DNA of 37,888 nt from Lachnospiraceae bacterium (GTDB lineage: Bacteria; Bacillota; Clostridia; Lachnospirales; Lachnospiraceae). The translations under genes and the position numbers were made by a program. This document shows, one piece after another, positions 3,044-32,515 of this stretch. Under the pieces are notes generated by a model, which did no database searches, had not been told where the DNA came from, and saw only the letters and a list, made by a program, of their open reading frames with translations. Positions within the stretch are counted from its first letter, which is position 1. Each line of letters starts with the position of its first letter. The DNA is taken from positions 1 through 37,888 of the forward strand of contig JAFUXA010000003.1 of assembly GCA_017470985.1 (NCBI GenBank), in the 5' to 3' direction.

Positions 3044-3122
3044 TGGTTTGCGGCGCTGATATTTATACCAGTGAAACCAGGCGGTAATTACTGCCTGTCA
3101 TAGAAGAAGGTTGGAGGAAAAT

Positions 3123-4907
3123 ATGAAAAAAAGAAGCACTATCTCCTGGGTTTTGGAGTTTGCCGGGAGAAAGAAATCTTACTACTTGGCCAGTGTGATA
3201 CTGGCTATTCTCGGAGTGGCTGCATCCTTTGCTCCGTATCTGCTGATTGCTGATATGGTAAGGCAACTTCTTGTGGGAAATCGAGATTATAACTATTTTC
3301 TCAGGATGGTTATCCTCATGGGAGCATGCTGGATTGTCCGAGTTACACTTCATTCATTATCTACTACACTTTCGCATGTGGCTACATTCAATGTCTTAGG
3401 TGGCATTCGCAGACAACTGTGCGAGAAACTTTCTAAAATTCCGCTTGGTTCAGTTCTAGATGACAACAGTGGAAGCTACAAAAATATCATTGTGGAGCGG
3501 GTTGACTCAATGGAAACGACTCTCGCTCATATTGTTCCAGAATTTACCTCAAACATTTTACTGCCAATAGTTATGTTCATCTATCTGTTGATGATAGATT
3601 GGCGAGTTGGTTTATCGAATTTAATCCCAGCGGTAATAGGCTTAATCTTTGCTGCTGTCATGATGATAAAAAGTCAGGGAGAGTTCGAAGTTACAATTGA
3701 GAAGACTAAGCACCTCAACGATACCGCGGTTGAATATATCAATGGTATAGAGGTAATCAAAGCTTTTGGCAAAACAGGTAGCTCATATGAGAAGTTCGTG
3801 GTCGCGGCCAGAGAGGGGGCTGATTGCTTTATTAACTGGATGCGTAAATGTATCTGGTGGCAAGCGGGAAGTCTATCATTTATGCCAGCGACATTTCTTG
3901 GAGTACTGCCTGTTGGGCTGCTTCTGGTTCGTGGTGGAAGCCTGACTACGGGAGATTTTATTACCTGTGTTATTTTATCGGCAGGGCTAATAACACCGCT
4001 GGTGGTGGCTTTTTCCTATATGGATGACATTATGAAGATGGGAACCATTTTTGGCGAGGTTGTAGAAATTCTCGAACGTCCAGATATGGTAAGACCTGAT
4101 ACAATCGCTGAATATCCAATTGGTTCAGATATTGAGCTTCAGGGAGTGAGATTTGCGTACAAAGATAAGGAAATTCTCCACGGAATCAACATGGTGATTA
4201 AGCAGGGACAGGTAAATGCTTTTGTGGGTCCGTCGGGTTCCGGCAAAAGTACCATAGCCAGACTTATTGATTCTCTCTGGGATGTGGACGAGGGAACAAT
4301 TACATATGGCGGCGTAGATATCAGAGAACTGCCGTTGGATTATTATACAAGTCAAATTGCTTACGTGGCCCAGGATAATTATTTATTTGACATGACTGTT
4401 ATGGACAATATACGTCTGGGTAAGAAGGGCGCAACAGATGAAGAGGTGGTAAATGCAGCCAAAGCCTCAGGTTGTCATGAATTTATAATGAACCTTGAAA
4501 ATGGTTACAACACTGTAGTAGGCGGAGCAGGCGGACATCTGTCTGGAGGTGAGCGCCAGCGCATATGTATTGCCAGAGCGATGCTGAAAGATGCGCCTGT
4601 AGTCATCCTTGATGAGGCTACAGCTTATACGGATCCTGAGAATGAAGCATTGGTTCAGGAGAGTGTGGCTAAACTAGTTCAGGGCAAGACTTTGATTGTT
4701 ATTGCTCATCGCCTGTCTACCATCCAGGATGCTGACCAGATTTTTGTGATAAATGATGGTCAAATTGCGGCATCAGGTAATCATTCAAATCTTTTGTCTA
4801 ACTGCATTCTCTATAGGAAGATGTGGGAAGCGCATACTATGGCAAAGGACAATGATCTGGAAAATGTGTCGGCAATCGCTGATGGAAAGGAGGCCGTAAA
4901 TGCTTGA
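3123..4907 (+). CDS. ABC transporter, fused permease/ATPase, subunit 1
   Basis: This is a 594-residue half-transporter: six membrane helices in residues about 15-300, then a nucleotide-binding domain. The domain shows Walker A GPSGSGKST (near residue 370), Q-loop (AYVAQDNYLF), signature LSGGERQ, Walker B with catalytic glutamate (VVILDEAT) and H-loop histidine (VIAHRLST). GGAGG (3113-3117) precedes the chosen ATG. The second subunit overlaps by 8 bp, so a heterodimer is expected. Overall look is close to the YbtP/YbtQ and IrtA/IrtB group, exporter-fold proteins that import ferric siderophores. That, plus the metal-regulator-like operator, suggests iron-chelate uptake. Drug or peptide export remains possible. 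Confidence 0.85.
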   Translation: MKKRSTISWVLEFAGRKKSYYLASVILAILGVAASFAPYLLIADMVRQLLVGNRDYNYFLRMVILMGACWIVRVTLHSLSTTLSHVATFNVLGGIRRQLCEKLSKIPLGSVLDDNSGSYKNIIVERVDSMETTLAHIVPEFTSNILLPIVMFIYLLMIDWRVGLSNLIPAVIGLIFAAVMMIKSQGEFEVTIEKTKHLNDTAVEYINGIEVIKAFGKTGSSYEKFVVAAREGADCFINWMRKCIWWQAGSLSFMPATFLGVLPVGLLLVRGGSLTTGDFITCVILSAGLITPLVVAFSYMDDIMKMGTIFGEVVEILERPDMVRPDTIAEYPIGSDIELQGVRFAYKDKEILHGINMVIKQGQVNAFVGPSGSGKSTIARLIDSLWDVDEGTITYGGVDIRELPLDYYTSQIAYVAQDNYLFDMTVMDNIRLGKKGATDEEVVNAAKASGCHEFIMNLENGYNTVVGGAGGHLSGGERQRICIARAMLKDAPVVILDEATAYTDPENEALVQESVAKLVQGKTLIVIAHRLSTIQDADQIFVINDGQIAASGNHSNLLSNCILYRKMWEAHTMAKDNDLENVSAIADGKEAVNA

Positions 4908-6636
4908 TATGCTTCGCAAGTTTTTTGATTTTTGCAGCCCACAGGACAGGGCGAAATTTTATAAATCAGTATTATTGGGAGTGCTTGATGCGATTTTCGG
5001 GGCTATGAAAATACCGGCAGCATTTTTTGCTATAAATGCTGTGATAGAAGGAAAAGTCGATACCAATACTTTAATGGTAGTAATGATGTTTATGCTCATT
5101 AGTACAGTGGGTAAAATGGTGGTTAATAGATTTTCACAGATGCTTCAGACTGAAGCGGGATACAATACTTGTGCAGGGAAAAGAATTGAAATAGGGGAGC
5201 ATTTGAGATACCTGCCTATGGGCTATTTTAATGACACGAGCTTAGGTCATATTACATCTGTGACCACCAACACCCTGGAGCAGACTGGCGATATTGCCAC
5301 AAGAGCCATTATGATGGTGCTACAGGGAAGCATCACAACTGTTGTAATTGCAGTGGGAATGTTTTTCTTTGATGTGAGAATAGGAATTATTTCACTGGTT
5401 GGAATTCTGGTTTTTCTCATTTTCAATAAATATACCAATTACAGCGTGGCGCAAGTCGCAGGAGAGAAAATTGAATCTGATAAGGATATGGTTGGAGTGG
5501 TTCTTGAATTTATTCAAGGCATTGGTGAAATTAGAAACTACAATATCATTTCACAGAGCAATACCAGATTGAATAATGCAATTGAGAGAAAGACCAGGGC
5601 TGACATAAGAGCTGAGGTTGCGGCTATTCCAGCAGTGGGCGTGCAGATGCTTATATGCAAAATGATAGGTGTGGTGATAGCTGGTGCATCTATTTATTTC
5701 TACCTGACGGGGACGATGGAAATCGCTTATACCATAACCATGCTTCTATGTTCATTTATGATATTTGAATCATTGGATTTGGCGGGTATATATACTGCGC
5801 TGCTGAAAATTATAGGCAGGGGAGTTGATATGGTAAATGAGATTCTCGACATTGAGCAAATGGATATAAATGGCGAGGATATTGTACCTGAAAATAGAGA
5901 TATACATCTGAATCATGTAAGCTTTGCTTATGAGAATAGAACTATTATTGATGATGTGACACTTGATATAAAGGAGAAGACCACAACAGCGATTGTGGGA
6001 CCATCGGGTAGCGGCAAGACAACCATTACATCTCTTATTGCAAGATTTTGGGATGTAAACTCTGGGCAGGTTACTCTTGGCGGGAGAGATGTAAGAGATT
6101 ACAGTTTTGATTCTCTTATGGAGAATTTCAGCTTTGTATTTCAGCGAGTATATCTGTTTGAGGATACAATTGCCAACAATATACGTTTCGGTAGACCAGA
6201 GGCTTCAATGGAAGAAGTGATTGCTGCTGCACAGAAGGCGTGCTGTCATGACTTCATCATGGGACTTCCTGATGGATATGACACCATTGTGGGGGAAGGT
6301 GGAGCTACACTTTCTGGAGGCGAGAAACAGAGAATAGCAATTGCCAGAGCGATTATGAAAGATGCGCCGATTATTATTTTGGATGAAGCTACAGCCAATG
6401 TGGATCCTGAAAATGAGAAAGAAATTACTATGGCAATAGAGAACCTGACTCAGGACAAGACAATTATTATGATTGCTCACAGACTGAAGACGGTAAGGCA
6501 TGCTGACCAGATTGTGGTCATTGATAATGGCAAGATTGTGCAGCAGGGTAAGCATGATGAATTGATGAAACAGGATGGAATCTACAAGAATTTCGTCAGT
6601 GGTAGAAAGCAGGCAGTTAGCTGGAAGATAGCCTGA
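4900..6636 (+). CDS. ABC transporter, fused permease/ATPase, subunit 2
   Basis: This is a 578-residue partner of the preceding gene, starting inside its last codons, with GGAGG (4888-4892) as ribosome site. Six membrane helices occupy residues about 15-300. The nucleotide-binding domain has Walker A GPSGSGKTT (near residue 367), Q-loop (FSFVFQRVYLF), signature LSGGEKQ, Walker B IIILDEAT and H-loop MIAHRLKT. Both subunits keep the catalytic glutamate and intact signature, so neither ATP site looks degenerate. That differs from many heterodimeric drug exporters, where one site is degenerate. A strong terminator follows, closing a two-gene operon. Confidence 0.85.
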   Translation: MLDMLRKFFDFCSPQDRAKFYKSVLLGVLDAIFGAMKIPAAFFAINAVIEGKVDTNTLMVVMMFMLISTVGKMVVNRFSQMLQTEAGYNTCAGKRIEIGEHLRYLPMGYFNDTSLGHITSVTTNTLEQTGDIATRAIMMVLQGSITTVVIAVGMFFFDVRIGIISLVGILVFLIFNKYTNYSVAQVAGEKIESDKDMVGVVLEFIQGIGEIRNYNIISQSNTRLNNAIERKTRADIRAEVAAIPAVGVQMLICKMIGVVIAGASIYFYLTGTMEIAYTITMLLCSFMIFESLDLAGIYTALLKIIGRGVDMVNEILDIEQMDINGEDIVPENRDIHLNHVSFAYENRTIIDDVTLDIKEKTTTAIVGPSGSGKTTITSLIARFWDVNSGQVTLGGRDVRDYSFDSLMENFSFVFQRVYLFEDTIANNIRFGRPEASMEEVIAAAQKACCHDFIMGLPDGYDTIVGEGGATLSGGEKQRIAIARAIMKDAPIIILDEATANVDPENEKEITMAIENLTQDKTIIMIAHRLKTVRHADQIVVIDNGKIVQQGKHDELMKQDGIYKNFVSGRKQAVSWKIA

Positions 6637-6680
6637 GGTAAACAACTTTCACATATATTTTGAAAATACACATTTCAATA

Positions 6681-6716
6681 GACTTGTGGACATGGAGAGT
6701 GTCTACAAGTCTTTTT
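6681..6716 (+). terminator. Intrinsic terminator of the ABC transporter operon
   Basis: A 12-bp stem pairs 6681-6692 (GACTTGTGGACA) with 6700-6711 through one G-T pair, has a 7-nt loop, and is followed by five T residues. Confidence 0.9.
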
Positions 6717-6925: not shown

Positions 6926-8734
6926 ATGAAATCAAAATTCAATAGGGGCATTGCGCTTCTTCTTGCGAGCGCATTATCTATAACAGCTGTGGCAGTATCT
7001 ACACCAGCGTCCTTGGGACATGTAGTAGCTGCACAGTCTATTTCTGTTGATGGAGACGCTGCTGACTGGGGAGATATATCCAGCAGAGGCTCTTCAGATT
7101 CTAAAATATCTGATTGGAAAGTCGCAGTGGATAATGATTATTTATATTTATATGTGGCTCAGAATCCGCTGGGCTATTATGGAGAATCCATAGGCCAGAC
7201 ACAGATTCATTTTAATTATAATTTGCAAAACTATAATGGTATCTACAATTCCATCCAGTTCGCACAGGATTGGAATAATCAGGGATCTCAGTTCGTTGTG
7301 AAAAATGCTTGGTACCAGAACGTTGACGGGTCAAGTGTAGTATTTGAGGGAAAAGGAACTGACTATAATCAGGAACATGCTTTCGTTGAGATTGCTATTC
7401 CTCGTAGCTGGTTTCCTACAGAGGATTTCACAATGACTTATGCAGGAGTACCTGTAGCGTCAAGTGATATTGAGACAATAAATGGCGCCAAGGCTCTGGG
7501 TCAGTCAGAGGCGCAGGATGAACAGGCTGAGCAGGAAAATCAGAATGCTCAGACAGATGAGGCAACAGAGACTTCAGAGGACGATGTTTATAACGGAATC
7601 GTAATAGATGGTGATTTCGCAGATTGGAATACAATCGCCAAGACACAGTATATTGATCCGGCACTTCCTGAGTCAGCTGCTGTCTGGGATGGTGAAAATG
7701 TATATGTATATCTGCACGAGCAGGGTGTCTGGGAAGGTACAGCTGGAACAGTCGGTCCTAAGTCAAATGGTATGTATTGCATAGAGACATCTGATGGAAC
7801 CAAGACATCATTTGTCATCAGAAAAGATGGAGCTTATCTTATTACAGATAGGGGTAATATCAATCTGGAGATGTCTTATAAGGACAGACAGTACGAAGTT
7901 CAAATTCCTGTATCTGAGTTAAATGGAATTAACAAGACCACTTCAACTCTCAGTGTTGCAATTCAGGGTGATTCATATGGTGAGGCTGGAAGCGGAATGG
8001 CATACATCGCTCAGGGGCTTGTTAATTTAAATCCACCATTTGATTATGAGGATACTACAGCAGGTCAGTTGAAGAAAATTACTTATGACTATGATTTCTC
8101 AGATTGGGAAGGATATAAGAAGACTGTAATCGAGTATTCTTCATCAGGAAAGAATGGCTCGGATTCAGCGGCGGCTTTATATTCAGATGGTGATTATCTC
8201 TTTGGATATGTAGATTATTATGCTGCTTATTACAATGATCAGTTCAACCAGATATATATGACAATTAATGATGGTGTCAATAAGAAATGGTATAACCATG
8301 ATGATAGCAGCAGAGTTATGTTTACATTGAGATCCGTAGATGCAAGCGGCAATGTGAACTGGAATTCTCAGGCAGTAGGGCTTGAGGAGGGTGATTATGA
8401 ATATCACATCTTTGATAATGCTCATGCAGGTTATAATAATTCTGATAAATATGATTATGGTAGAGCTTTTGTGCATGTTGATAAGACAGGACGAGCTCAG
8501 ATTGAGTATTACATCGACATAGCTAAGCTTGTAAATGTGGTAAATGAGGCACCATATTCATGGCATATCAAGCAGTCTGATATCAAGATGTATCACATGG
8601 CTTATCCTAGAATTGGTACAGAATGGGTATCATCTGCCGGCGCATCATCTGGACCAATTTTAGGAATTGTATTATGCATTATGAGTGTGGTATTGGCACA
8701 AATTTATAACTTGAGACGAAAAAGAGAACATTAA
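6926..8734 (+). CDS. Secreted protein with Firmicu-CTERM sorting signal, likely XrtG substrate
   Basis: This is a 602-residue protein. A signal peptide (about 1-36, ending VVAAQS) is followed by three modules that each open with a GDxxDW or similar motif: VDGDAADWGD (about 40), IDGDFADWNT (about 226) and YDYDFSDWEG (about 388). Each continues with a strand like 'DNDYLYLYV', as in CBM9/DOMON-like carbohydrate-binding folds. A Glu/Gln-rich linker (about 190-222) separates modules 1 and 2. The C-terminus has a short SSGP-type motif (about 573-576), one membrane helix and a basic tail (RRKREH), which matches the tripartite Firmicu-CTERM signal. The exosortase gene follows after 26 bp. The protein is presumably exported, processed at the C-terminus and kept at the cell surface. 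GGAAA (6910-6914) is the ribosome site. Confidence 0.8.
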   Translation: MKSKFNRGIALLLASALSITAVAVSTPASLGHVVAAQSISVDGDAADWGDISSRGSSDSKISDWKVAVDNDYLYLYVAQNPLGYYGESIGQTQIHFNYNLQNYNGIYNSIQFAQDWNNQGSQFVVKNAWYQNVDGSSVVFEGKGTDYNQEHAFVEIAIPRSWFPTEDFTMTYAGVPVASSDIETINGAKALGQSEAQDEQAEQENQNAQTDEATETSEDDVYNGIVIDGDFADWNTIAKTQYIDPALPESAAVWDGENVYVYLHEQGVWEGTAGTVGPKSNGMYCIETSDGTKTSFVIRKDGAYLITDRGNINLEMSYKDRQYEVQIPVSELNGINKTTSTLSVAIQGDSYGEAGSGMAYIAQGLVNLNPPFDYEDTTAGQLKKITYDYDFSDWEGYKKTVIEYSSSGKNGSDSAAALYSDGDYLFGYVDYYAAYYNDQFNQIYMTINDGVNKKWYNHDDSSRVMFTLRSVDASGNVNWNSQAVGLEEGDYEYHIFDNAHAGYNNSDKYDYGRAFVHVDKTGRAQIEYYIDIAKLVNVVNEAPYSWHIKQSDIKMYHMAYPRIGTEWVSSAGASSGPILGIVLCIMSVVLAQIYNLRRKREH

Positions 8735-8760
8735 TTGAGAGACTTATAAGGAAATAGATT

Positions 8761-9357
8761 ATGAACAACTGGATTGGCTTATTATTGGTAGCTTTTTGGT
8801 TGTATATATATTACATAATGAACAAGGCACAGCTGAGAGCCTGGAAATATTTCTGGGGCAGCTGTGGTTTGTTTATTATTATGATGATTTGGATACGACC
8901 ACTTTTGACACAGCCATTAGCTGAAGTAGTAGCTTCAGTGGCTGGTATTTGGGGAAAATTAACAGGAATGTATTCGTCATATTTTAAGTATGGCGTTCTT
9001 TTTGTGGACTCTGTAAACGGGGCTATAAGTTTACAGATTGATTTTGAGTGCTCAGGAATACTTGAGATTATGGCATATCTTGCCCTCTTGGTATTTTTTG
9101 AAGCATACAATATTTTCGAGAGAGTGATAGTCGGTGTTATTGGTGTGATGTATATAATACTTGCCAATGCAATTAGAATATCAACTATCTGTACAATTTT
9201 ATATTTTCATGGAATCGGTGCGTATCATATGGCACATACAATAGTAGGCAGACTGATTTTCTATGGTCTATCTGTTGTACTATATTTCTTTGTATTTACC
9301 AAGGCGCAGATTATCAGACAGAAAGTAGGTGGATTTACTTATGGGCATTCTAAATAG
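8761..9357 (+). CDS. xrtG: Exosortase family protein XrtG
   Basis: This is a 198-residue polytopic membrane protein. The exosortase/archaeosortase catalytic residues are visible in order: C97 in DFECSGILE, R139 in ANAIRIS and H159 in HMAHTIVGR, each at the outer end of a membrane helix. The small size and the neighbours (GT2 glycosyltransferase, PTPS-like proteins) identify the Gram-positive XrtG type. Exosortases are thought to be transpeptidases that cut the C-terminal signal of target proteins and transfer them to another molecule. The adjacent Firmicu-CTERM protein is the obvious target. Neither the acceptor nor the cleavage site is known from this sequence. Confidence 0.9.
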   Translation: MNNWIGLLLVAFWLYIYYIMNKAQLRAWKYFWGSCGLFIIMMIWIRPLLTQPLAEVVASVAGIWGKLTGMYSSYFKYGVLFVDSVNGAISLQIDFECSGILEIMAYLALLVFFEAYNIFERVIVGVIGVMYIILANAIRISTICTILYFHGIGAYHMAHTIVGRLIFYGLSVVLYFFVFTKAQIIRQKVGGFTYGHSK

Positions 9358-10762
9358 TGTATTTAATTCCATCTTGTTTTGGGCTGCATGGATTATCATC
9401 CCATTTATCATGGAAATGATTCCTGCTATTGGTAATATCGTAATCCTAATCAAGAAACAAATTAAGAAAAAGAATAAGCAGCAAAGTGATTCTCAGGAGG
9501 AACTGACATTTTTTCCTGAGATCACAATTATGGTTCCTGTCTATAATTCGGCAGATACTCTTGAGGCATGTATCAGATCTATTAATGATAGTGATTATCC
9601 AAATAATAGAATAAATGTATATCTGGTCAATAATCAGGGGCAAGATAACAGTTTCCAGGTGTATTGTCAGTGCCAGGAGAAATATCCTGAACTTATTATG
9701 CAGTGGTTAAATGCTCAGCAGGGTAAGTCCAAGGCACTCAATATGGCACTTTTCAACAGTAAGGGAAAATACATCATCAATATAGATAGTGATGGTATTT
9801 TGGAGAAGTCTGCGCTGAAGAATCTGGTGACTAAGTTTGAAGTTGATCCTACTATACAGGTAATGACAGGTGCTATTTTAATTGAACCAAGACTTATTGA
9901 AGAGTATCCTTGGATATTTCCTAAGCTTTTGCGTAAGACTGAATTTATGGAGTATGCACAGGCCTTTTTGGCAGGACGAAATTATGCCTCTGAGACCAAC
10001 TCTATATATACATTATCAGGAGCATTTTCTGCTTTTAGGAAGTCTGCTGTGTTAAGTTCCCATATGTACAATACAGATACTATATGTGAGGATACAGAAC
10101 TTACATTTCAGATGCGATACAACAAGAAAGAGCGAGTACAGATTTGTGAGGATGCAATCTTCTTCGTTGATCCAATAGAGGATATGAATAAGCTCTACAC
10201 TCAGCGCCAGCGTTGGCAGAGAGGAAGCCTTGAAGTATCGGCTATGTTTTTGAAGGACAAGATGAAGGCTCGCAAGATGCTTATTGATCCAACTGTCCGC
10301 ACTTTGGTTTATGATCATACATTTGCTTTCCCTAGAATGATATGGTATCTGGCACTTTTGTGTTTACTGTTTTTGAATTATTCTATGAGAATGATTGTGA
10401 TTTCAGTTGCAATATTATTTGTAGGCTATATTGTAATGGGATTTTTCTATTTCTTCTCTACGGTGGCTTTCCTGAAGCCTTTTGATGAAATTAGAAATTA
10501 TTACAAGAAGCAATGGTATATAGTATTTATATTGCCATTTTTCAATCTTTTGGTGTTCTTTATCAGATTTGCTGGAATTATCAATAGTATCAATACTGAC
10601 AGCGCATGGAAGACCAGAAATCTCACAGAAGAGTGGCAGGCATTTACCAGAGAACTTCATGTGAGTGTAAGTGGAATCAGAAGTCGATTCAAGAAGCTTC
10701 AGGACCTGGTGAATGTGGAAGAGCCCACTGAGCAGGATGCGGAAAATAATACTGATAATTAG
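9341..10762 (+). CDS. XrtG-associated membrane glycosyltransferase, family GT2
   Basis: This is a 473-residue processive-type GT2 enzyme. After an N-terminal membrane segment (about 8-30) the GT-A domain begins with TIMVPVYNSADTLEACIRS. The metal-binding DSD is at 149-151, the catalytic ED at 250-251 (ICEDTELTF), and the QRQRW motif at 288-292. Three or more membrane helices follow (about 325-420). The QxxRW motif is typical of synthases that extend and export a polysaccharide. I take the ATG at 9341, with AGGTGG at 9325-9330; a GTG at 9329 is an alternative. The gene overlaps xrtG, as expected for the known XrtG-associated glycosyltransferase family. It probably builds the glycan or lipid-linked sugar used in the locus. 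Confidence 0.85.
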   Translation: MGILNSVFNSILFWAAWIIIPFIMEMIPAIGNIVILIKKQIKKKNKQQSDSQEELTFFPEITIMVPVYNSADTLEACIRSINDSDYPNNRINVYLVNNQGQDNSFQVYCQCQEKYPELIMQWLNAQQGKSKALNMALFNSKGKYIINIDSDGILEKSALKNLVTKFEVDPTIQVMTGAILIEPRLIEEYPWIFPKLLRKTEFMEYAQAFLAGRNYASETNSIYTLSGAFSAFRKSAVLSSHMYNTDTICEDTELTFQMRYNKKERVQICEDAIFFVDPIEDMNKLYTQRQRWQRGSLEVSAMFLKDKMKARKMLIDPTVRTLVYDHTFAFPRMIWYLALLCLLFLNYSMRMIVISVAILFVGYIVMGFFYFFSTVAFLKPFDEIRNYYKKQWYIVFILPFFNLLVFFIRFAGIINSINTDSAWKTRNLTEEWQAFTRELHVSVSGIRSRFKKLQDLVNVEEPTEQDAENNTDN

Positions 10763-10861
10763 TAGGTGATTAATAAATGGAAATTGCCTATAGATTAGAT
10801 AATCAGATTTGAGAGAGGTATCAGCAGATTAGTTGATACGAATAATAAGAGGAGGACCTCC

Positions 10862-11971
10862 ATGACTAGAAGAGAGAAGAGAAAGACCTTGGAGTGGGAA
10901 TATAAGAAGCGTGACATGATCAAACTCCAGTTGAGGTTTAGAGTTATACTTGTGGCCACAATTGCCGTGATAATTGTATTTGGAATTATGGGATATGCCC
11001 TTATGGGTATGTACAAGGATGCGATCCTCAATGTATATGCTGCGCAGCAGGATAATTATGTACAGTTGGTTGTGGATCAGATTAATCTGCAGGATGACAG
11101 AACAGACGAGAGCATCATCTCAGATATTATCGATACTCTCGATAGTGGTAATACTCATTATTGGACATTGGCCAAGTCTGGTAATATGCTTTTTGTAAAA
11201 AATGTAACTGAGACCAATAAATATCAGGGTGCAATCATGGAAGATTTCTTTGACACAGCTACAGCAGATAAATTTGTGGAGGAGCTAAATGTTAATAGAG
11301 CCGCCCATGATATTATCAAAATGAATGGTCAGAGATATGTGGTATCAGGTGCAGTATTTGAATATAACAGAAATGAATACAGCCTGTGTCTGTTGACAGA
11401 TGAGACTGTAATTTTGGACAACAATGATTTCCTGTCTACCAGAATTGCACTTTATATCTATGTAATATTTATTATGCTTCTACTTCTTCTTGCAGCAATG
11501 GTTGCAGAGGCAATGGTTATGAGAAGAGAAGAAGACAATAATATGTTAAAGGGCAGACTTGAGTTGCAGAATCAGCATATTAACCGACTTGAACTTGAGG
11601 CTAAGCAGAGAGATTCCTTCAATACCAGATATAATGCTTACAATGAGTCTCTACTTGGAGAATTTGCCAAGAGACTTGATGAGAGAGGATTGGATAAGGC
11701 AGTGCTGGTTAGAATTGATTATACCAGTGTGGAAGACGCCAAGAAATTCCTGATAAGAGCTGCAACTACTCTTGATGAGACTGTTATCAGATTCAAGAAT
11801 GATACAGGTCGGGTGAGCCTTATTATGACTTGCTTCGATGAGAAAATGGCAGTGGATACAATCGCCAGATTTGAGATTGATTCAAGGGTAAATGTAGTGA
11901 TGGAAGATGTGGCAGCAGGCAAAGAAAGTATAAGTGAAGCTTATGAGAAGATGTATGAGGAGGAGATGTAA
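10862..11971 (+). CDS. Two-pass membrane protein with degenerate GGDEF-like domain
   Basis: This is a 369-residue protein with a basic N-terminus, membrane helix 1 (about 27-49), an extracytoplasmic region of about 140 residues, membrane helix 2 (about 193-217), a coiled-coil-like stretch (about 222-250) and a cytoplasmic domain. The last domain resembles a GGDEF fold, with strand VLVRIDY (about 279-285) and later VIRFKNDTGRVSLIM, where an active enzyme would have R-GGDEF-l-l. The metal- and GTP-binding signature is missing, so it should not make c-di-GMP. It may bind a nucleotide or relay a signal to the glycosyltransferase. GGAGG (10852-10856) is the ribosome site. The 99-bp gap before it (10763-10861) contains only an 11-codon frame at 10777. 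Confidence 0.6.
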   Translation: MTRREKRKTLEWEYKKRDMIKLQLRFRVILVATIAVIIVFGIMGYALMGMYKDAILNVYAAQQDNYVQLVVDQINLQDDRTDESIISDIIDTLDSGNTHYWTLAKSGNMLFVKNVTETNKYQGAIMEDFFDTATADKFVEELNVNRAAHDIIKMNGQRYVVSGAVFEYNRNEYSLCLLTDETVILDNNDFLSTRIALYIYVIFIMLLLLLAAMVAEAMVMRREEDNNMLKGRLELQNQHINRLELEAKQRDSFNTRYNAYNESLLGEFAKRLDERGLDKAVLVRIDYTSVEDAKKFLIRAATTLDETVIRFKNDTGRVSLIMTCFDEKMAVDTIARFEIDSRVNVVMEDVAAGKESISEAYEKMYEEEM

Positions 11972-11973
11972 TT

Positions 11974-12450
11974 ATGGCAGTGCAGTTTAATCGTACTTAT
12001 AGATTTAAATTTTATCTAAATGCAAATCATTTCATTATCATTAATGGGGTGGAAGGCGAGACTCATCCTCACACATGGGAGTTTACATTTGAAATAATGA
12101 TAATGAGCGATGATTTCGTGCAGTTCAATTCTTATGAGAGAGCAATCGACGAGTACTTCTCTAAATATCAGAATCGCGTAATGAATGACTTCGAACCATT
12201 TGATACAGTTATTCCTACTCTGGAAAATATGTCTGAAGTCTTCGTGCTGGATATCAAGGATATTGTAGAGGCACAAAACGGTAAGCTTCTGAAGATGGAA
12301 AGTAGTGAGACTCCTACCAGAAGCTACATTATCAGTTTTGCAGAGAATGAAGACTTCAAGGAGACAATGAAGAATCGTCGTAAGGAAAGTCTGGATTTAG
12401 AGATTGATTCAGTGATAGACAAGGTTATGGACAAAAGAGAAGCGTTATAA
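11974..12450 (+). CDS. 6-pyruvoyl-tetrahydropterin synthase-like protein of the XrtG locus
   Basis: This is a 158-residue protein of the PTPS/QueD T-fold type. The zinc-binding histidines are present: H19 in NANHF and H31 and H33 in THPHTWEF. A conserved glutamate sits at E112 (SSETPTRS). The whole protein has no cysteine, so the catalytic cysteine of PTPS and QueD, normally a few residues before the HxH motif, is absent. It is therefore unlikely to run the standard pterin reaction. Related proteins recur in XrtG loci, where their role is unknown. It begins 2 bp after the previous stop, with GGAGGAG (11959-11965) upstream, and overlaps the next gene by one base. Confidence 0.8.
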   Translation: MAVQFNRTYRFKFYLNANHFIIINGVEGETHPHTWEFTFEIMIMSDDFVQFNSYERAIDEYFSKYQNRVMNDFEPFDTVIPTLENMSEVFVLDIKDIVEAQNGKLLKMESSETPTRSYIISFAENEDFKETMKNRRKESLDLEIDSVIDKVMDKREAL

Positions 12451-14939
12451 TGAAGAAGATATCTAATAAAATAATTATTCCAATAATAATATGCATATAT
12501 GCATTGATAGCATTTGCATTTACCTATGCTATCTATAAGGGAGGCGACTACCCATCAGGTTCTAATACCATGGGATTTTTGTACCGCGCCAAGGTGTTGC
12601 TTGCAGGGATTGGCAGTGGAGATATATACCCATCTTATGATCCTTATTGGTTCAACGGGCAGCAGCTTATGAGATATGTGGAACCATTTCCTCTGTATAT
12701 TTTGGCAGCATGTATAGCGAGTGCGGCAGGTAAAGTTATACCGGGTTATCTGGTTTATGTCATGGTGCTTGTTATGGCTACAGCTTTGCCTTGGATATGG
12801 ATTGGTAAGAAGACCAATAGGTTATGTCTGGCAGCGTGCATGGGGCCAATCTGGTTTTTCATTCCAGCCAATATGTACAATTTATTTGTCAGAGGTAATC
12901 TCAATGAATGTCTGGCAAATGTTGTAGTTCCAATCCTTATAATGTTGACTTATCTGTGGCTTCATGACGAGGAAAATAAGACAAGATATCTGTTGGGACT
13001 GATTCTTGCAGAATTATATATTGCAAATTGCAGTGTGACTGTAAGTATTGAGATGCTTATTACCATTGCAGTGTATGGACTTTTTCATCTTCTTAGATAC
13101 AAGAAGTTCAAGAAGTTTGTGATGCTTATTTTCACATTGATCCTGGGCATAGGAATATTTGCCATATGGATATATCCATCCACCAAGGGAGATTTCTATG
13201 AGTTGAGAAATGTTGAACTTATGGTGAAATATTTCCAGGATGCTATTACATCATTAAATCCTGTATATAGAGTGACAGGAGATGATAGCAGATATTACTT
13301 CGGGCTCTCAATATTTGCCGTGGGAATATTTGGCATAGTAGCAGGTAAGGACAATGACAAGAAGGGACTGCTTCTGGCGCTCATATTGTTTATTGCATCA
13401 ACCACAAGTGCCTATGGCATGTTTTCGAAGATTCCTGGGAATAATTACCTGTGGATGGCCAGATATATGTCCATAGCTGCAGCTTTGGTTCTCATTGGAT
13501 TTATCAGCTGGAAGAAGTTGCGCAAGGGATTTATAGTTTTGTGCATGGCTTTGATTGTGTTGGATATAATTCCATCAATTATGGTAAATATTGGTGATGG
13601 CAGATACACTGCCAGGGACAAGGCGGAAGCATTTACCAGCGCCAATATGATAGACGAGGTCAGGGCCATCACAAAGCAGAGAATGATATTTATCGACGGC
13701 GATGTATATGAGACCAATGGTGATTATTATGCAGCGGCAGCAGATGATGGCAATGGAATGGTGCCTCAGTCAGGCGGAGATAGCATCGGATATGGAGCTA
13801 CGCATGAGAACCTGATGGATTTAAATGATGCCATCAGTGCGAGACATTATACATATCTGTTTGACAGACTTCTCACATTGGGAAATGATACTGTACTTCT
13901 GTCTACACATGCTTCGGAATATCTCACTGCAGATGTCAATGAGGTTATAGCTTCTGCAGCCATGAGTGGATATAAGCTGGTGGATAATGATAGATTCACT
14001 TATTTATTCCATAGGGAGACACCGGAGACCTTTGGCGTGACTACTGTATTTGACGCCATAAGCATAGGAGATACGGGAAAGCTTCTGTCTTATTCTTATG
14101 TGGATATGGAACAGGGCAAGTCCAATAATATCAATGATTATACCTATGATGATTTGAAAGATTACAAGCTTATATATCTGTCAGGATTTACCTTTGATGA
14201 TCAGACCAAGGCTGAGGAGCTGATTCTCAAGCTGGCTCAGTCTGATATCAAGATTGTGGTAGATGGAAGTGGCATCCCTGTGGATAAGCATACAGGTATA
14301 CAGAGCTTCCTGGGAGTTACCTGTCAGCCTATTAAATTTGAAAACGGTTATCCTGTTCTTCATTTTAATAATGAGGATGTGGTATGTAAGCTGTTTCCGG
14401 CAAATGATAGAAAATGGTCGACTGTATATCTCAACGGTTTGGACCATGTAAAGGGATATCTGTATGAAAATGGTGTGCAGTTGGCTTATGCCGGTACTGC
14501 AGAAAATGAGAATATCAATTTCATAGGTATATCTCTGGCTTACCATTATTATGCAACTCTTGATGATAAGGGAAGCAAGAAGATTCTCGACAATATGATG
14601 TGGCAATATATGGATGAAGTGCCTCAGAGAACTCTGGTACCACTTGATATCACATATGGCAGAGATGAAATAACAATAAATTCAGATTATGATGATGTAG
14701 ATACCACACTTGCTGCAGTGGATACCATGACAGGTGATTTTGATGCAATAATCAATCTGGTATTCGTCGACAAGGGTACAACTATTATTAAGATGAGAAA
14801 TCCTTATGTTGTAAAAGGTGCCTGTATAAGTATATTGGCTCTTGTTGGGGCGGTGCTTATGTTGGTGCTGAATCAGAAAAGAGAATCGGCAAAAGTGCAA
14901 AATGTGAATCTGCAAAAAGTGCAAAAAGCGAATCGTTAA
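12450..14939 (+). CDS. PTPS-related large membrane protein (glycosyltransferase-C-like)
   Basis: This is an 829-residue membrane protein. The N-terminal half (about 1-380) carries roughly ten or more membrane helices, with acidic extracytoplasmic segments such as GGDYPSGSNTMGFLYRAK in the first loop. The second half is a large outside domain (about 390-785), followed by a last membrane helix (about 795-815) and a basic tail. This is the build of the 'PTPS-related membrane protein' family found with the PTPS-like gene in XrtG loci. Helix-rich halves of this kind are typical of GT-C enzymes using polyprenyl-linked sugars, which is my inference. The start overlaps the previous stop (TAATG). Confidence 0.75.
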   Translation: MKKISNKIIIPIIICIYALIAFAFTYAIYKGGDYPSGSNTMGFLYRAKVLLAGIGSGDIYPSYDPYWFNGQQLMRYVEPFPLYILAACIASAAGKVIPGYLVYVMVLVMATALPWIWIGKKTNRLCLAACMGPIWFFIPANMYNLFVRGNLNECLANVVVPILIMLTYLWLHDEENKTRYLLGLILAELYIANCSVTVSIEMLITIAVYGLFHLLRYKKFKKFVMLIFTLILGIGIFAIWIYPSTKGDFYELRNVELMVKYFQDAITSLNPVYRVTGDDSRYYFGLSIFAVGIFGIVAGKDNDKKGLLLALILFIASTTSAYGMFSKIPGNNYLWMARYMSIAAALVLIGFISWKKLRKGFIVLCMALIVLDIIPSIMVNIGDGRYTARDKAEAFTSANMIDEVRAITKQRMIFIDGDVYETNGDYYAAAADDGNGMVPQSGGDSIGYGATHENLMDLNDAISARHYTYLFDRLLTLGNDTVLLSTHASEYLTADVNEVIASAAMSGYKLVDNDRFTYLFHRETPETFGVTTVFDAISIGDTGKLLSYSYVDMEQGKSNNINDYTYDDLKDYKLIYLSGFTFDDQTKAEELILKLAQSDIKIVVDGSGIPVDKHTGIQSFLGVTCQPIKFENGYPVLHFNNEDVVCKLFPANDRKWSTVYLNGLDHVKGYLYENGVQLAYAGTAENENINFIGISLAYHYYATLDDKGSKKILDNMMWQYMDEVPQRTLVPLDITYGRDEITINSDYDDVDTTLAAVDTMTGDFDAIINLVFVDKGTTIIKMRNPYVVKGACISILALVGAVLMLVLNQKRESAKVQNVNLQKVQKANR

Positions 14940-14984
14940 ATGCACAAAATGAGATGATATAGATAAATCTAGCGAGGGTAGATT

Positions 14985-17093
14985 ATGAAGATAAAGAAGA
15001 AAATTCTGGCCTGGGTTTTAATGAGCGTTGTTGTATTAAATGGCTGTGGTGTTGGCAAAGTCTTTGACGAGGAGAGCTCATCTATTAGTCAGCCTATGTA
15101 TCAGGATGGAGATACAGCTTATGCATTTCGCACACAGGGCAAGAAATATCAGAGATACAATGGCAGCGATTTTGAAGACTTCTATATCGAAGGGGTAAAT
15201 ATTGGTGCTGGTATTCCAAATTCATTTCCCGGAGAATTAGGTGTCTCAGAGGATGATTATTACAGATGGTTTGAAGAGATTGCTGCTATGCATGCTAATA
15301 CAATTAGATCATATACAGTATTGATGCCTGAATTCTATAATGCCCTGTATAGATATAATGAGAGTCATGATGATAAGCTCTATCTGTTTCAGGGATGCTG
15401 GTATGATGAGGATGTGGTAACTGCTACTGGAAATGCATATGATTCATACGATAGAGTCAAGACGGATTTGAAGGATCTGGTTGATATCATACATGGTCAT
15501 GCTTCTATTGATAAATTGTCTGGTCATGCTTATGGAATCTATACCAAGGATATATCTCAGTATGTATGTGGATGGATACTGGGTATTGAATCAGACCAGG
15601 ACTTGGTTGAAGGAACCAACAATGCCAACCCGCAGTTGAATTCATATGATGGTAAATATTTATCCTGTCATGATGTACAACCTTATGAGGTATTCTGGTG
15701 TGAGATAGGAGATTATGTACTGGCATACGAGGATGAGAATTATCATATGCAGCGCCCTGTAAGTTATTCTAACTGGGCTACTGCAGATGTATTTCACCAT
15801 CCTAATGAACCACTTAGCAAGGAGGATGCAGTTTCTCTTACGGTGGAGGATTTAAATCCCGGGGAGCGTTTCCCGGCGGGATTATTTGCCAGCTATCATG
15901 TGTATCCTTATTATCCGAACTTTATGTTCTCTGAGGAACCATACAAGTCTTATAAGGATGAAAATGGTGAGATAGATACATATCTGCCTTACCTGAAGCA
16001 ACTGGTGGATTATCATAGCGTGCCTGTGGTTATAGCGGAGTTTGGTCTTCCAACCAGCAGAGGTGTCACCCATGTAAATCCAATTACAGGCTGGAATCAG
16101 GGCGGACATACTGACGAGGAACAGGGAGAACTTCTTGTAGCTATGTTTGAGGACATCAGAAAAGCCGGTTGTGCCGGTGGCATGATATTTACATGGCAGG
16201 ATGAGTGGTTTAAGAGAACCTGGAATACAGAGCTTGCCACGGACAGTGATTATAGAGCTTATTGGAATGATGTTCAGACCTGTGAGCAGCATTTCGGTCT
16301 GCTGGAATTTGTATCAGATGAGTTGGAAAATGTACCTGTAATAGATGGCAAGTCAGATGATTGGTCAGAGGATGATGTGATTTATTCTGATAAGGAGACC
16401 AAACTGGCAGTCAAATCTGATTCCACTTATGTATATCTCATGATGGAAAGCCAGGGTGCTGATTATTCCAAGGCTGGAAATTATGTATACTTCGATATTA
16501 ATCAGGATGCCGGCTGTGCATCATATGATGGAATGAGTCTCAGCAGAGATGCTGATTTTGTTATTGAGATAAATGGAGAGGATAACACCCGCATAATGGT
16601 GGAGGAGAGTTCTGATCCATATATGGTTGCAATGGCTGAACAGGATGTGGGAACAGTTGATTTACATGGTCATGATACAGATACATTTCACAGAGAATAT
16701 CTGGTATTGGACAGATCATTGACCTATCCTCAGACAGGCGAGACAGTGCCTGTACAATTGACAGAGACCGGACTTATGAGATTCGGTTCTACAGATGAGG
16801 ATTCAGATGAGTATAACTATCTGACAGACTTCGCATACGAGGGTGATGTGATAGAATTTAGAATCCCTTGGGGACTGTTGGGATTTGCCGCTCCATCTAT
16901 CAAGGAAATCAATACTCCGGCTGCAGAGAATAATACTGCCAAGGTTGATGGTATGTATCTGGGATGCTTGATTGGAAGCGAAGATAGAGGCACTGTCAAT
17001 TACACCTGGAAAGACTGGTCAAGCGCGCGTTATAAGGAGAGATTGAGAAAATCTTATTATATATTGCAGGATTATCTGGGCGATGAGAAATAA
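14985..17093 (+). CDS. Lipoprotein with glycosidase-like barrel and C-terminal carbohydrate-binding-like module
   Basis: This is a 702-residue predicted lipoprotein with signal peptide and lipobox VLNGC (C21). Residues about 55-440 look like a clan GH-A (beta/alpha)8 barrel: FYIEGVNIGAG at strand 1, HANTIRSYTVLMPEFY, a possible acid/base glutamate at E202 (LGIESDQD), the likely nucleophile E352 in VVIAEFGLPTS, and IFTWQDEWFKRTW at strand 8. Residues about 450-700 begin VIDGKSDDWSEDD and continue with STYVYLMME, the same module style as in the sorted protein at 6926. The family looks like GH2/GH5-type enzymes but I cannot place it. It ends the XrtG gene set and may trim or transfer the surface glycan. 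GCGAGGG (14972-14978) is the ribosome site. Confidence 0.7.
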   Translation: MKIKKKILAWVLMSVVVLNGCGVGKVFDEESSSISQPMYQDGDTAYAFRTQGKKYQRYNGSDFEDFYIEGVNIGAGIPNSFPGELGVSEDDYYRWFEEIAAMHANTIRSYTVLMPEFYNALYRYNESHDDKLYLFQGCWYDEDVVTATGNAYDSYDRVKTDLKDLVDIIHGHASIDKLSGHAYGIYTKDISQYVCGWILGIESDQDLVEGTNNANPQLNSYDGKYLSCHDVQPYEVFWCEIGDYVLAYEDENYHMQRPVSYSNWATADVFHHPNEPLSKEDAVSLTVEDLNPGERFPAGLFASYHVYPYYPNFMFSEEPYKSYKDENGEIDTYLPYLKQLVDYHSVPVVIAEFGLPTSRGVTHVNPITGWNQGGHTDEEQGELLVAMFEDIRKAGCAGGMIFTWQDEWFKRTWNTELATDSDYRAYWNDVQTCEQHFGLLEFVSDELENVPVIDGKSDDWSEDDVIYSDKETKLAVKSDSTYVYLMMESQGADYSKAGNYVYFDINQDAGCASYDGMSLSRDADFVIEINGEDNTRIMVEESSDPYMVAMAEQDVGTVDLHGHDTDTFHREYLVLDRSLTYPQTGETVPVQLTETGLMRFGSTDEDSDEYNYLTDFAYEGDVIEFRIPWGLLGFAAPSIKEINTPAAENNTAKVDGMYLGCLIGSEDRGTVNYTWKDWSSARYKERLRKSYYILQDYLGDEK

Positions 17094-17364: not shown

Positions 17365-18033
17365 ATGAATAAATTTTCAAAAGGTATTGAGTACTTGATT
17401 TTAAAATATCTGGCTGTGCCAAAGGTGCCTGAGATTGATCATAGCAAGAATACTATCATCTGCATCGGAGACAGTATTACTTTCGGCGCCGGTGTAAATG
17501 GGAAAAAGACGATGACCTGGGAATATTTTCTGGAGAATAAACTGGGTGAAGATTATCAGGTGTTAAACTATGGTATCAGCGGAAGAACATTGCTTAGTAC
17601 AGGCGATTATCCTTATTCAGATGAAAAGCAATTTGCGGCTTCGCAGGAAGCTTTGGCAGATACATATATTATAATGCTGGGAACCAATGATTCTAAGCCG
17701 TACAATTGGGATGAGAGTAGATATGCAAGAGAGTTAGAAGAATTTGTAAATCTATATAGAAGTTTGCCAAATGATCCCAAAGTAATTTTGATGACACCGC
17801 CGACATGTTATATTGATCCTAAGATTGGCATGGTTGGATTTGATATAGATGGAGATGTTGTATCGGGGGCAATTTATAATATTGTATCCAATATGGCTGA
17901 AAAGTATGAGTTAGAGCTGATAGATTTGAATAAGTATACAGCTAATCATGAAGACTGGTTTGTGGATGGTGTGCATCCAAATGAGCTGGGAAATAGAGAA
18001 ATTGCTGAGTATATATTTGAGCGAATTAATTAG
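17365..18033 (+). CDS. SGNH/GDSL-family hydrolase
   Basis: This is a 222-residue protein with the four SGNH blocks: catalytic S37 in CIGDSITFGAG, the oxyanion glycine in NYGISGRTLL, asparagine in MLGTNDSKPYN, and the D201/H204 pair in VDGVHPNE. There is no signal peptide, so the enzyme appears cytoplasmic. This family removes acetyl or other ester groups, often from plant cell-wall oligosaccharides or from glycans. A cytoplasmic acetylxylan-oligosaccharide esterase would suit the sugar-use content of the window, but the substrate is not shown by the sequence. The ribosome site is GGGAGAAGGA (17350-17359). A long hairpin follows. Confidence 0.85.
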   Translation: MNKFSKGIEYLILKYLAVPKVPEIDHSKNTIICIGDSITFGAGVNGKKTMTWEYFLENKLGEDYQVLNYGISGRTLLSTGDYPYSDEKQFAASQEALADTYIIMLGTNDSKPYNWDESRYARELEEFVNLYRSLPNDPKVILMTPPTCYIDPKIGMVGFDIDGDVVSGAIYNIVSNMAEKYELELIDLNKYTANHEDWFVDGVHPNELGNREIAEYIFERIN

Positions 18034-24148: not shown

Positions 24149-24211
24149 CATTGCAGACCGGGTGTATTATGGTTGAAAAAGAGATATTTTCAACTACGGA
24201 GGAGAAATAAT

Positions 24212-25711
24212 ATGAAGCAGAAATTAGACTACAAATTTTGGTTTTGCACCGGCTCACAGGACTTATATGGGGATGAGTGTCTGGCTCATGTGGCAGCACA
24301 TTCCAAGGAGATTGTGGAATGTCTGAACAAGTCAGGAAATCTGCCTTTTGAGGTGGTTTGGAAACCTACCATGATTACCAATGAGGTAATTCGTCGCACC
24401 TTTAATGAGGCCAACAACGATCCTACATGCGCAGGTGTCATCACATGGATGCATACATTTTCACCTGCTAAATCTTGGATTTTAGGTCATCAGGAATTGC
24501 GCAAGCCGCTTTGCCATATGCATACCCAGTACAATCGTGAAATTCCATATGAGACAATGGATATGGATTTCATGAATGAGAATCAGGCGGCACACGGCGA
24601 TCGCGAATATGCTCACATCTTGTCTCGCATGGGGATTGAGAGAAAGACTATTGTGGGATATTGGCAGGACGAAGCAGTGCAGAAGGCTCTGGGCTCTTGG
24701 ATGCGTACTGCAATAGGTATTGTGGAATCCAGCCATATTCGTGTTATGCGTGTGGCTGATAATATGAGAAATGTAGCTGTTACCGAGGGCGACAAGGTAG
24801 AAGCTCAGCTGAAGTTTGGCTGGGAGGTTGATGCTTATCCGGTAAATGAAATTGCTGAGGCGGTTTCGGATGTTTCTCAATCTGATGTAAATGTACTTGT
24901 AGATGAGTATTATGATAAATATGATATCTGTCTGGAAGGTCGTGACCCGGAGGAGTTTAAGCGCCATGTTGCGGTACAGGCTCAGATAGAGCTTGGCTTT
25001 GAACGATTCCTTGAGGAGAAGAACTATCAGGCTATCGTGACACACTTCGGTGATTTAGGAGCATTACAGCAGCTTCCAGGACTTGCAATTCAGCGCCTCA
25101 TGGAGAAGGGCTACGGCTTTGGCGCAGAAGGTGATTGGAAGGTGGCTGCTATGGTTCGTCTCATGAAGATTATGACAACTGGTATGAAGGATGCCAAGGG
25201 CACATCAATGCTTGAGGATTACACTTACAATCTGGTACATGGCAAGGAAGGTATTATCCAGGCGCACATGCTTGAGATATGTCCAACTATTGCAGATGGA
25301 CCAATTCAGATTAAGTGCCAGCCACTGTCTATGGGCGACCGTGAAGATCCAGCTCGTCTGGTATTTCAGTCCAAGACTGGAAGAGGAATTGCAACCTCTC
25401 TTATTGATTTAGGTAACCGTTTCAGACTTATTATTCAGGATGTGGATTGCAAGAAGGTGGAGAAGCCTCTTCCTAAGCTTCCTACAGCAATCAATTTCTG
25501 GACACCACAGCCTGATTTCTATACTGGAACAGAAGCCTGGTTATTAGCAGGTGGTGCACACCATACTGCATTCACATATGATTTGACTGCAGAACAGATG
25601 GGAGACTGGGCAGCAGCTATGCGAATTGAGGCAGTATATATCGACAGTGACACTCGTATCCGCGATTTCAAGCGCGACTTAGCTCTGGGAAATGTGGTAT
25701 ACGGTAAATAA
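24212..25711 (+). CDS. araA: L-arabinose isomerase
   Basis: This is a 499-residue protein, the normal length for AraA, which converts L-arabinose to L-ribulose in the cytoplasm using Mn2+. Recognisable family segments are FWFCTGSQDLYGDECL at the start, WMHTFSPAKSWI, QYNREIPYETMDMDFMN, GFGAEGDWKVAAMVRLMK with metal-ligand glutamates, and MLEDYTYNL. Metal-binding histidines lie near HMLEICPTI and GGAHHTAF. GGAGGAG (24200-24206) supports the ATG at 24212. AraB and AraD are not in the window. The two-component and importer genes that follow are in the same direction with a gap of 66 bp. Confidence 0.97.
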   Translation: MKQKLDYKFWFCTGSQDLYGDECLAHVAAHSKEIVECLNKSGNLPFEVVWKPTMITNEVIRRTFNEANNDPTCAGVITWMHTFSPAKSWILGHQELRKPLCHMHTQYNREIPYETMDMDFMNENQAAHGDREYAHILSRMGIERKTIVGYWQDEAVQKALGSWMRTAIGIVESSHIRVMRVADNMRNVAVTEGDKVEAQLKFGWEVDAYPVNEIAEAVSDVSQSDVNVLVDEYYDKYDICLEGRDPEEFKRHVAVQAQIELGFERFLEEKNYQAIVTHFGDLGALQQLPGLAIQRLMEKGYGFGAEGDWKVAAMVRLMKIMTTGMKDAKGTSMLEDYTYNLVHGKEGIIQAHMLEICPTIADGPIQIKCQPLSMGDREDPARLVFQSKTGRGIATSLIDLGNRFRLIIQDVDCKKVEKPLPKLPTAINFWTPQPDFYTGTEAWLLAGGAHHTAFTYDLTAEQMGDWAAAMRIEAVYIDSDTRIRDFKRDLALGNVVYGK

Positions 25712-25777
25712 TTCTGTTAGATAACAGCTTGTCTAACAGGCAATGAAAATGCGGAGTATTGGAAGATGGGGGACACA

Positions 25778-28728: not shown

Positions 28729-28767
28729 AAAATCCAACGATATTCGTTTTTTTATGAATGTTCATTT

Positions 28768-28842
28768 ACCCTCCTTTGGGTTAACATTTCTTTCAGAAAG
28801 GGGAATAGTTCCCCGCGAGAAGTGTAACACTATAAGGAGGGT
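28768..28842 (+). promoter_or_regulatory. Leader able to mask the ribosome site of the binding-protein gene
   Basis: ACCCTCCTT (28768-28776) is perfectly complementary to AAGGAGGGT (28834-28842), which contains the Shine-Dalgarno sequence of the gene at 28849 and runs into six T residues. A small hairpin, GGGGAA (28800-28805) with TTCCCC (28809-28814), lies between. Formation of the long pairing would hide the ribosome site or act as a terminator. Confidence 0.5.
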
Positions 28843-28848
28843 TTTTTA

Positions 28849-29841: not shown

Positions 29842-29871
29842 TTCTTGATACAACATGGAATAAAACTTAAG

Positions 29872-29900
29872 GAGGCGCGGTGGGTACCGCGCCTCTTTTT
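29872..29900 (+). terminator. Intrinsic terminator between binding protein and ATPase genes
   Basis: A perfect 9-bp GC-rich stem (GAGGCGCGG at 29872-29880 with CCGCGCCTC at 29887-29895) has a 6-nt loop and is followed by five T residues. Partial read-through would give much more binding protein than membrane complex. Confidence 0.9.
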
Positions 29901-29921
29901 AAAAGGAAGAGGTGGAAAACC

Positions 29922-32514: not shown

Positions 32515-32515
32515 A

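Follow-up and report, generated by a model that had tools for sequence, protein, structure and literature searches.

What does an exosortase of the XrtG type do to its dedicated substrate, and to which acceptor might the product be passed? The question is raised by a stretch of 37,888 nucleotides from a Lachnospiraceae bacterium (GenBank assembly GCA_017470985.1, contig JAFUXA010000003.1; hereafter the window), in which xrtG lies among seven genes running on the forward strand from position 6926 to 17093. Neither a reaction nor an acceptor is given in those parts of the literature on exosortase G, XrtG or Firmicu-CTERM that were available to us, in agreement with what an earlier interpretation made from the letters without database searches (the sequence-only reading) had stated. 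The same reading had placed the reading frames correctly and called the locus complete; the profiles TIGR04145, TIGR03110, TIGR03111 and TIGR03112 all match above their curated NCBIfam cut-offs within one probable operon. Judged from these profiles, the locus is a member of the XrtG/Firmicu-CTERM system. Two observations stand out: a protein without family name, encoded at 10862-11971 (the 10862-type protein), is always part of the cassette in the loci examined, and a substrate-like domain is fused to an XrtG that lacks its Cys. The strict set of six genes, its constant 10862-type member and the fusion of a substrate-like domain to a Cys-less enzyme make the open question of XrtG directly testable.

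A Six-Gene Cassette

The comparison is based on the best 80 of 243 relatives found, to which further loci from other genomes were added. A six-frame census of gene content covered 84 loci (the window, three others and the 80), of which 19 had too little flank and 65 were kept, enough flank being at least 3.5 kb before and at least 6.5 kb after xrtG; the loci L016, L018, L020 and L021, identical to L071, L039, L069 and L091, respectively, were excluded from it. In all of the 65 clostridial loci six genes lie on one strand within 9.5 kb and encode exactly one CTERM protein, XrtG, a glycosyltransferase (GT2) of the TIGR03111 type, a member of the 10862 family, a PTPS-like protein and a PF10131 protein; since the census profiles were built from these same loci, the 65 of 65 is valid for near relatives only. 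PTPS-like genes number one in 29 loci and two in 36. Fusions of PTPS to the PF10131 protein, of GT-C type, are found in L019, L127, L128, L129, L131 and L132, and to the 10862-type protein in L015 and L092; the PTPS-PF10131 gene of L128 (4215-7717) is split into two reading frames. The 10862-type gene had no place in the account of the sequence-only reading, yet it is present in every locus with enough flank. The six core genes probably form one membrane machine making a surface glycan.

In the window, the gaps among the seven genes, which are the six of the cassette and an optional lipoprotein gene, are at most 99 bases, and a terminator-like hairpin on the forward strand (6680-6712) separates them from the ABC genes upstream, so that a single operon from 6926 to 17093 is probable; terminator-like sites number 11 in the region, against 5.2 expected by shuffling. 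A whole-genome search for other Firmicu-CTERM proteins, which the sequence-only reading had suggested as a check, found a single XrtG and a single Firmicu-CTERM protein in the window's own genome (88.76% complete); each of the three TIGR04145 matches falls within the reading frame that starts at 6926. XrtG occurs in two of the three genomes of the genus, and the locus is accessory, because it is absent from a congener that is 100% complete (G002). In a sample of the class, XrtG is carried by nine of 291 genomes. Lachnospira eligens ATCC 27750 also has the locus.

The Firmicu-CTERM Protein and XrtG

The first gene (6926-8734) encodes the predicted dedicated substrate of XrtG, which TIGR04145 matches in three stretches (113.1 bits against a cut-off of 50). 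The signal peptide, SSAGASSGP motif, hydrophobic helix and RRKR tail, all described in the sequence-only reading, are recognized by eye. Three tandem domains, d1 to d3, extend over residues 34-192, 222-375 and 382-570 (approximate limits), and hhalign joins d1 to d2 (98%) and d2 to d3 (95%), with no direct match between d1 and d3 (0.1%). The strict C-terminal motif is carried by 63 of the 80 CTERM homologues; the remaining 17, inspected by eye, mostly have another residue in the place of Pro. A CBM9-like fold for these domains was not confirmed by the searches.

XrtG itself (8761-9357), of the exosortase family, scores 183.2 bits with TIGR03110 (cut-off 102.75). The residues C97, R139 and H159, which had been singled out from the letters, are invariant in 10 of 10 XrtG proteins aligned, one from the window and nine from other genomes. 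All 84 clostridial loci examined have the predicted catalytic Cys, which was itself part of one of the two patterns used in the search. The XrtG of the window keeps its catalytic residues intact and is predicted to cleave and transfer the CTERM protein.

The 10862-Type Protein and Its Probable PTPS-Like Partner

The 10862-type protein (369 amino acids) matches no Pfam or NCBIfam family above cut-off, and its profile finds only chance-level matches in the PDB. Besides two PTPS fusions, a Pfam scan of 35 members of the family returned scattered weak names only, with one GGDEF_2 match (E 0.0026) and one GGDEF match (E 0.013) among them. By eye, the architecture is a hydrophobic helix, a conserved region presumably outside, a second hydrophobic helix and a C-terminal GGDEF-like domain presumably inside; hhalign matches this C-terminal part to 14 GGDEF domains at 65% (P 6e-5), and the N-terminal part, taken as control, reaches 0.6%. 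The GG[DE]EF motif and the RxxD I-site are both absent from the window protein, and by eye no GGDEF motif and no clear RxxD appear in the 35 aligned rows. Judged from alignment and motifs, the inner domain is a degenerate GGDEF-like domain and not a diguanylate cyclase. The family was found in eight of the 291 genomes (E 1e-8, at most seven candidates being scored per genome) and, since all eight are among the nine with XrtG, it is a protein of the cassette; in the ninth (G158), without a match to the family, xrtG is on a contig of 3,078 bases.

The PTPS-like protein (11974-12450) is matched by TIGR03112 with 132 bits (cut-off 69.35). In PTPS and QueD, we take the Cys before HxH and the Asp-His pair to be catalytic and the conserved His to form the metal site. 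Three metal-site His and two Glu are kept in 65 of 65 cassette proteins, from which one PTPS protein longer than 420 amino acids was left out. None of the 65 has a Cys among the eight residues that precede HxH, against five of five QueD proteins from the window's own genome and its relatives; Asp70 is replaced by Gln in all 65, and His71 by Asn in 51, Asp in 12, Glu in one and Gly in one. It is therefore likely, as far as residues can tell, a binding or regulatory protein rather than a pterin synthase. A second, shorter PTPS-like gene stands upstream of the CTERM gene in several loci (L031, L032 and others; about 117 amino acids in L031), and in 35 such homologues the catalytic Cys is never present, Asp70 is kept in one and His71 in three. 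A single-sequence search for solved relatives of the PTPS-like protein gave chance matches only. In L015 and L092 a PTPS-like domain stands in place of the GGDEF-like part of the 10862-type protein, and this replacement suggests that the two proteins are probably partners.

The Glycosyltransferases and the Likely Product

The GT2 gene (9329-10762), whose GTG start overlaps xrtG, encodes the synthase that the sequence-only reading had placed after XrtG. TIGR03111 matches it with 613.7 bits (cut-off 363.95), the next-best family being PgaC (135.9 bits, below cut-off). The QxxRW motif of processive synthases, QRQRW in the window, is present in 82 of 82 GT2 homologues of at least 390 amino acids. 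In eight loci (L039, L043, L049, L066, L073, L076, L087 and L088) the GT2 is 946-994 amino acids long, and in the three of the eight that were scanned (Pfam for L039 and L073; NCBIfam for L039, L073 and L088) the additional C-terminal part is an OpgB-like phosphoglycerol transferase, below the equivalog cut-offs.

The gene at 12450-14939 had been counted, together with that at 11974, among the PTPS-like proteins. The earlier term is right for 11974-12450; for 12450-14939 it holds only through the Pfam name of PF10131, PTPS_related (375.2 bits, cut-off 26.4). This polytopic protein looks like a GT-C-type membrane glycosyltransferase, an activity suggested by its family; PF10131 has been assigned to the GT-C clan (PMC7801869). 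No solved relative was found by sequence profile, the PDB matches being at chance level. Some cassettes have polyprenyl-phosphate sugar synthase-like and GtrA genes beside them (L051 and L017 were tested). Together, the GT2, the PF10131 GT-C protein, the OpgB-like parts and these neighbouring genes suggest that the product is probably a glycan made at the membrane and finished outside.

Fusions of the CTERM-Like Domain and Loss of the XrtG Cys

Of 398 genomes examined in the phylum, 10 have a TIGR03111 match above cut-off, the window's own and that of one relative among them; the others led to further classes. There, the gene immediately before xrtG encodes an unfused CTERM-like protein that terminates in motif, helix and basic tail. 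Families f97 and f123 have a PF10131 protein extended at its C-terminus by the CTERM-like domain and its tail (four loci aligned; with a PTPS part in L129 and L132, without it in L130), and the XrtG beside this fusion retains its Cys (L129-L132). XrtG itself carries the domain, at its N-terminus, in family f101 and in single genomes belonging to f145 and f153; the place of L111 in f145 is unsure, because its contig has 3,089 bases and its genome 5% contamination. Among 63 genomes from the class to which G325 belongs, 14 gave a match, of the fused kind in eight and of the unfused kind in six. In both kinds of fusion the domain remains bound to a membrane protein.

The fused XrtG lacks the Cys in 10 of 10 proteins, with Asn in nine and Ser in one; near copies are included among these rows (L127, L128 and L168 share 95-96% identity, and one genome supplies both L170 and L177), L184 extends past its contig end, and the short matches in G719 and G737, both at contig ends, were excluded. 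The unfused XrtG has the Cys in 30 of 30, six of them from the same class as the fusions; these 30 are 26 of the 36 XrtG proteins of the tree set and L063, L098, L135 and L176, checked separately. The fused proteins group together in a single clade (96/93), found in other classes and far from the XrtG of the window. They are under purifying selection, with ratios of non-synonymous to synonymous substitution rates (dN/dS) of 0.08-0.13 in four pairs. Their frames are complete in eight genomes and run off the contig in the ninth, and the Arg and His are kept in the eight proteins inspected, which do not include L183 and L184. The fused XrtG of L127, the one tested, passes TIGR03110 (105.2 against 102.75). 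The GT2 and GT-C genes are kept in L127 and L128, and a TIGR03111 GT2 above cut-off adjoins the fused gene in G325, G442 and G385. A Cys-less XrtG fused to its own substrate is not mentioned in the titles and first lines of abstracts of the papers found on exosortase G, XrtG, Firmicu-CTERM and exosortase with c-di-GMP.

The unfused CTERM-like domain aligns with the XrtG-fused one at 100% (166 columns) and with the GT-C-fused one at 99.8% (168 columns). Compared with d1, d2 and d3 of the window, the GT-C-fused domain gives 23%, 52% and 74%, and none of three unrelated controls reaches 1%. Position, tail and a DG-DW motif, more than score, identify the fused domain as a CTERM domain.

What XrtG May Do

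Gene content, motifs, fusions and Cys loss were observed directly, and the reactions in what follows are those that the families suggest. The whole explanation that we prefer, tentatively and at a little less than an even chance, is a six-gene membrane glycan machine in which XrtG links the CTERM protein to a lipid or lipid-linked glycan. The processive GT2 would draw on cytosolic sugar donors to polymerize a chain and, outside, the PF10131 protein would add sugars from undecaprenyl-phosphate sugars, with the PTPS-like and GGDEF-like membrane proteins as non-catalytic, probably regulatory, subunits. The CTERM protein would be exported and stay in the membrane through its C-terminal helix, its repeated domains handling the emerging glycan; the XrtG of the window would bind the helix, cleave at the AGASSGP motif and transfer the new end to a membrane acceptor, most likely a lipid or lipid-linked glycan. 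Since the clade with such a domain fused to a Cys-less XrtG keeps the cassette, the essential outcome would be the location of the CTERM domain at the machine, and cutting in trans would be dispensable once the domain is tied to XrtG. Several points weigh against this proposal. The reaction, the glycan and the acceptor of the cassette are all inferred from sequence; a glycan-binding role of the CTERM domains is putative, as no Pfam or PDB match that stands was found for them, their PDB profile matches being at chance level. The Cys-less fusions may have changed function and, as they form a single clade, the loss of the Cys may be one event. Their link to the window is weak by score, the unfused CTERM-like domain giving 46%, 84% and 68% with d1, d2 and d3 over 52, 17 and 19 columns, and TIGR04145 giving 19.4 bits on L133, below the cut-off of 50; the weighing of the alternatives is unaffected by these scores, because it was set on gene arrangement. 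Finally, since the uncut helix already anchors the protein, cutting must do more than anchor in the Cys-bearing majority.

The sequence-only reading had instead proposed a surface glycan joined to, or processed together with, the sorted protein, which in its full form has XrtG form a covalent bond between the CTERM protein and the completed glycan and the protein leave the membrane as a conjugate, as occurs in type IX secretion. The strict pairing of XrtG, one dedicated substrate and the glycan-synthesis genes argues for it, and C-terminal glycosylation of type IX cargo has been published (PMC7468200). However, the obligatory form of such coupling is weakened by the distant clade, which keeps the cassette although its XrtG has Asn or Ser where the Cys presumably needed for such chemistry would stand, and we regard this coupling as possible, though rather unlikely. 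Less probable in our judgement is that XrtG acts as a docking subunit holding the glycan-handling CTERM domain at the synthase, with Cys cleavage only freeing or renewing that subunit; docking would have become permanent, and the Cys lost, in the fused clade. If this were true, exosortase-type proteins would include catalytically dead scaffolds and the view of such proteins would change. A mere release protease, with the CTERM protein cut from its helix to diffuse to the wall or medium and water as the only acceptor, would fit the intact catalytic residues of the window, and cleavage is all that the sequence implies. However, Cys enzymes of the exosortase type are generally regarded as transpeptidases, and CTERM-like domains fused to membrane proteins in two lineages show that release is not a conserved outcome, so that we find this quite improbable. 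Slightest of all is the chance that the fusions without Cys belong to relatives in decay or put to a new use and are uninformative for the system of the window: they are one clade, remote and in other classes, with a CTERM-like domain of weak similarity, but the low dN/dS, the complete frames, the retained Arg and His and the adjoining GT2 genes speak against it.

The Optional Lipoprotein

The last gene of the operon (14985-17093) encodes a lipoprotein with a GH157-like TIM barrel and a C-terminal beta-rich domain, which could serve the preferred machine as an optional trimming enzyme. It had been called glycosidase-like and a member of the set. The former is supported by a fold match (VIA-align) to a GH157-type barrel, in which E202 and E352 of the window protein are invariant, and not by sequence: no Pfam, NCBIfam or PDB sequence match was found. 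The latter is contradicted by its distribution: the gene occurs in 21 of 65 XrtG loci and in 25 clostridial genomes, of which only the window's own has XrtG and the other 24 do not, so that it is ruled out as a core component. The closest comparison is LaGH157 (9g4n, with laminaritriose); the window protein differs in having no Pfam match, in its extra C-terminal domain and in being a lipoprotein. Compared for a possible domain in common with the CTERM proteins, its C-terminus gives 32% with d1 and under 1% with d2 and d3; for the distant CTERM-like domains the values are 28% and 4.5%. XrtG-less clusters with a GH157-like protein (L191-L200), nine of ten with a GT2 and one (L200) additionally with VTC, DUF4956, CotH and HEAT-repeat proteins, are apparently a separate surface-glycan system.

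Relation to Known Systems and to Cyclic di-GMP

With respect to the NCBIfam XrtG/Firmicu-CTERM system, the window adds the 10862 family, the GT-C-like protein and the optional GH157-like lipoprotein. The Lactococcus lactis plasmid pBV60 (NZ_CP110851.1) has the same order of CTERM, XrtG, TIGR03111, PTPS and glycosyltransferase genes; unlike the window, it has no 10862-type match in the stretch read, its glycosyltransferase is TIGR03766 with no match to the PF10131-type profile, and its cassette is immediately preceded by an EAL gene and a GGDEF gene, the latter with intact motif (L134, 4413-6098). The Lactococcus lactis cassette plasmid (L134) is typed as conjugative. An XrtG set of Lactiplantibacillus plantarum is reported as over-expressed transcripts, with no mechanism in the part of the report available (PMC12854382), and an exosortase G-associated GT2 appears in a table of another report (PMC8951740).

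A membrane GT2 with GGDEF/EAL-type partners is also found in the synthases of PgaC/BcsA type controlled by cyclic di-GMP (c-di-GMP) and in the gts operon of Lactobacillus acidophilus (PMC6123363), whereas the GGDEF-like domain of the window is without the GGDEF motif. The gts operon was discarded as an XrtG locus, the words exosortase and CTERM occurring 0 times in the text of that paper. A motif scan of 88 loci showed c-di-GMP genes to be rare near clostridial cassettes, with one GGDEF gene (L086) and two EAL-like matches (L025 and L086), and neither the window nor the five loci scanned with it contained a c-di-GMP riboswitch at the gathering threshold. There are thus only hints of c-di-GMP control of the cassette, namely the degenerate GGDEF-like domain and one Lactococcus plasmid. 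Membrane oligosaccharide synthesis by OpgB/OpgH is similar in joining a GT2 and a phosphoglycerol transferase, which are one polypeptide in relatives of the window; this fusion is absent from the GT2 of the window itself. The opg system is not known to include an exosortase.

Surroundings of the Locus

Directly upstream of the operon and on the same strand lie two ABC exporter half-genes (3111-6636). The pair was not found at the same place in the nearest relative (L014/L022), in which a gene of 106 amino acids, SMR-like, precedes the CTERM gene. A GDSL/SGNH esterase-like gene (17365-18033) follows 271 bases 3' of the operon; its product could act on the glycan, and no homologue was found in the other 87 loci. 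At the left end of the window there is a Group II intron match (66-136; RF00029, 43.9 bits), and a cluster with L-arabinose isomerase, a two-component system and a sugar ABC transporter was recognized by eye at 24173-34614.

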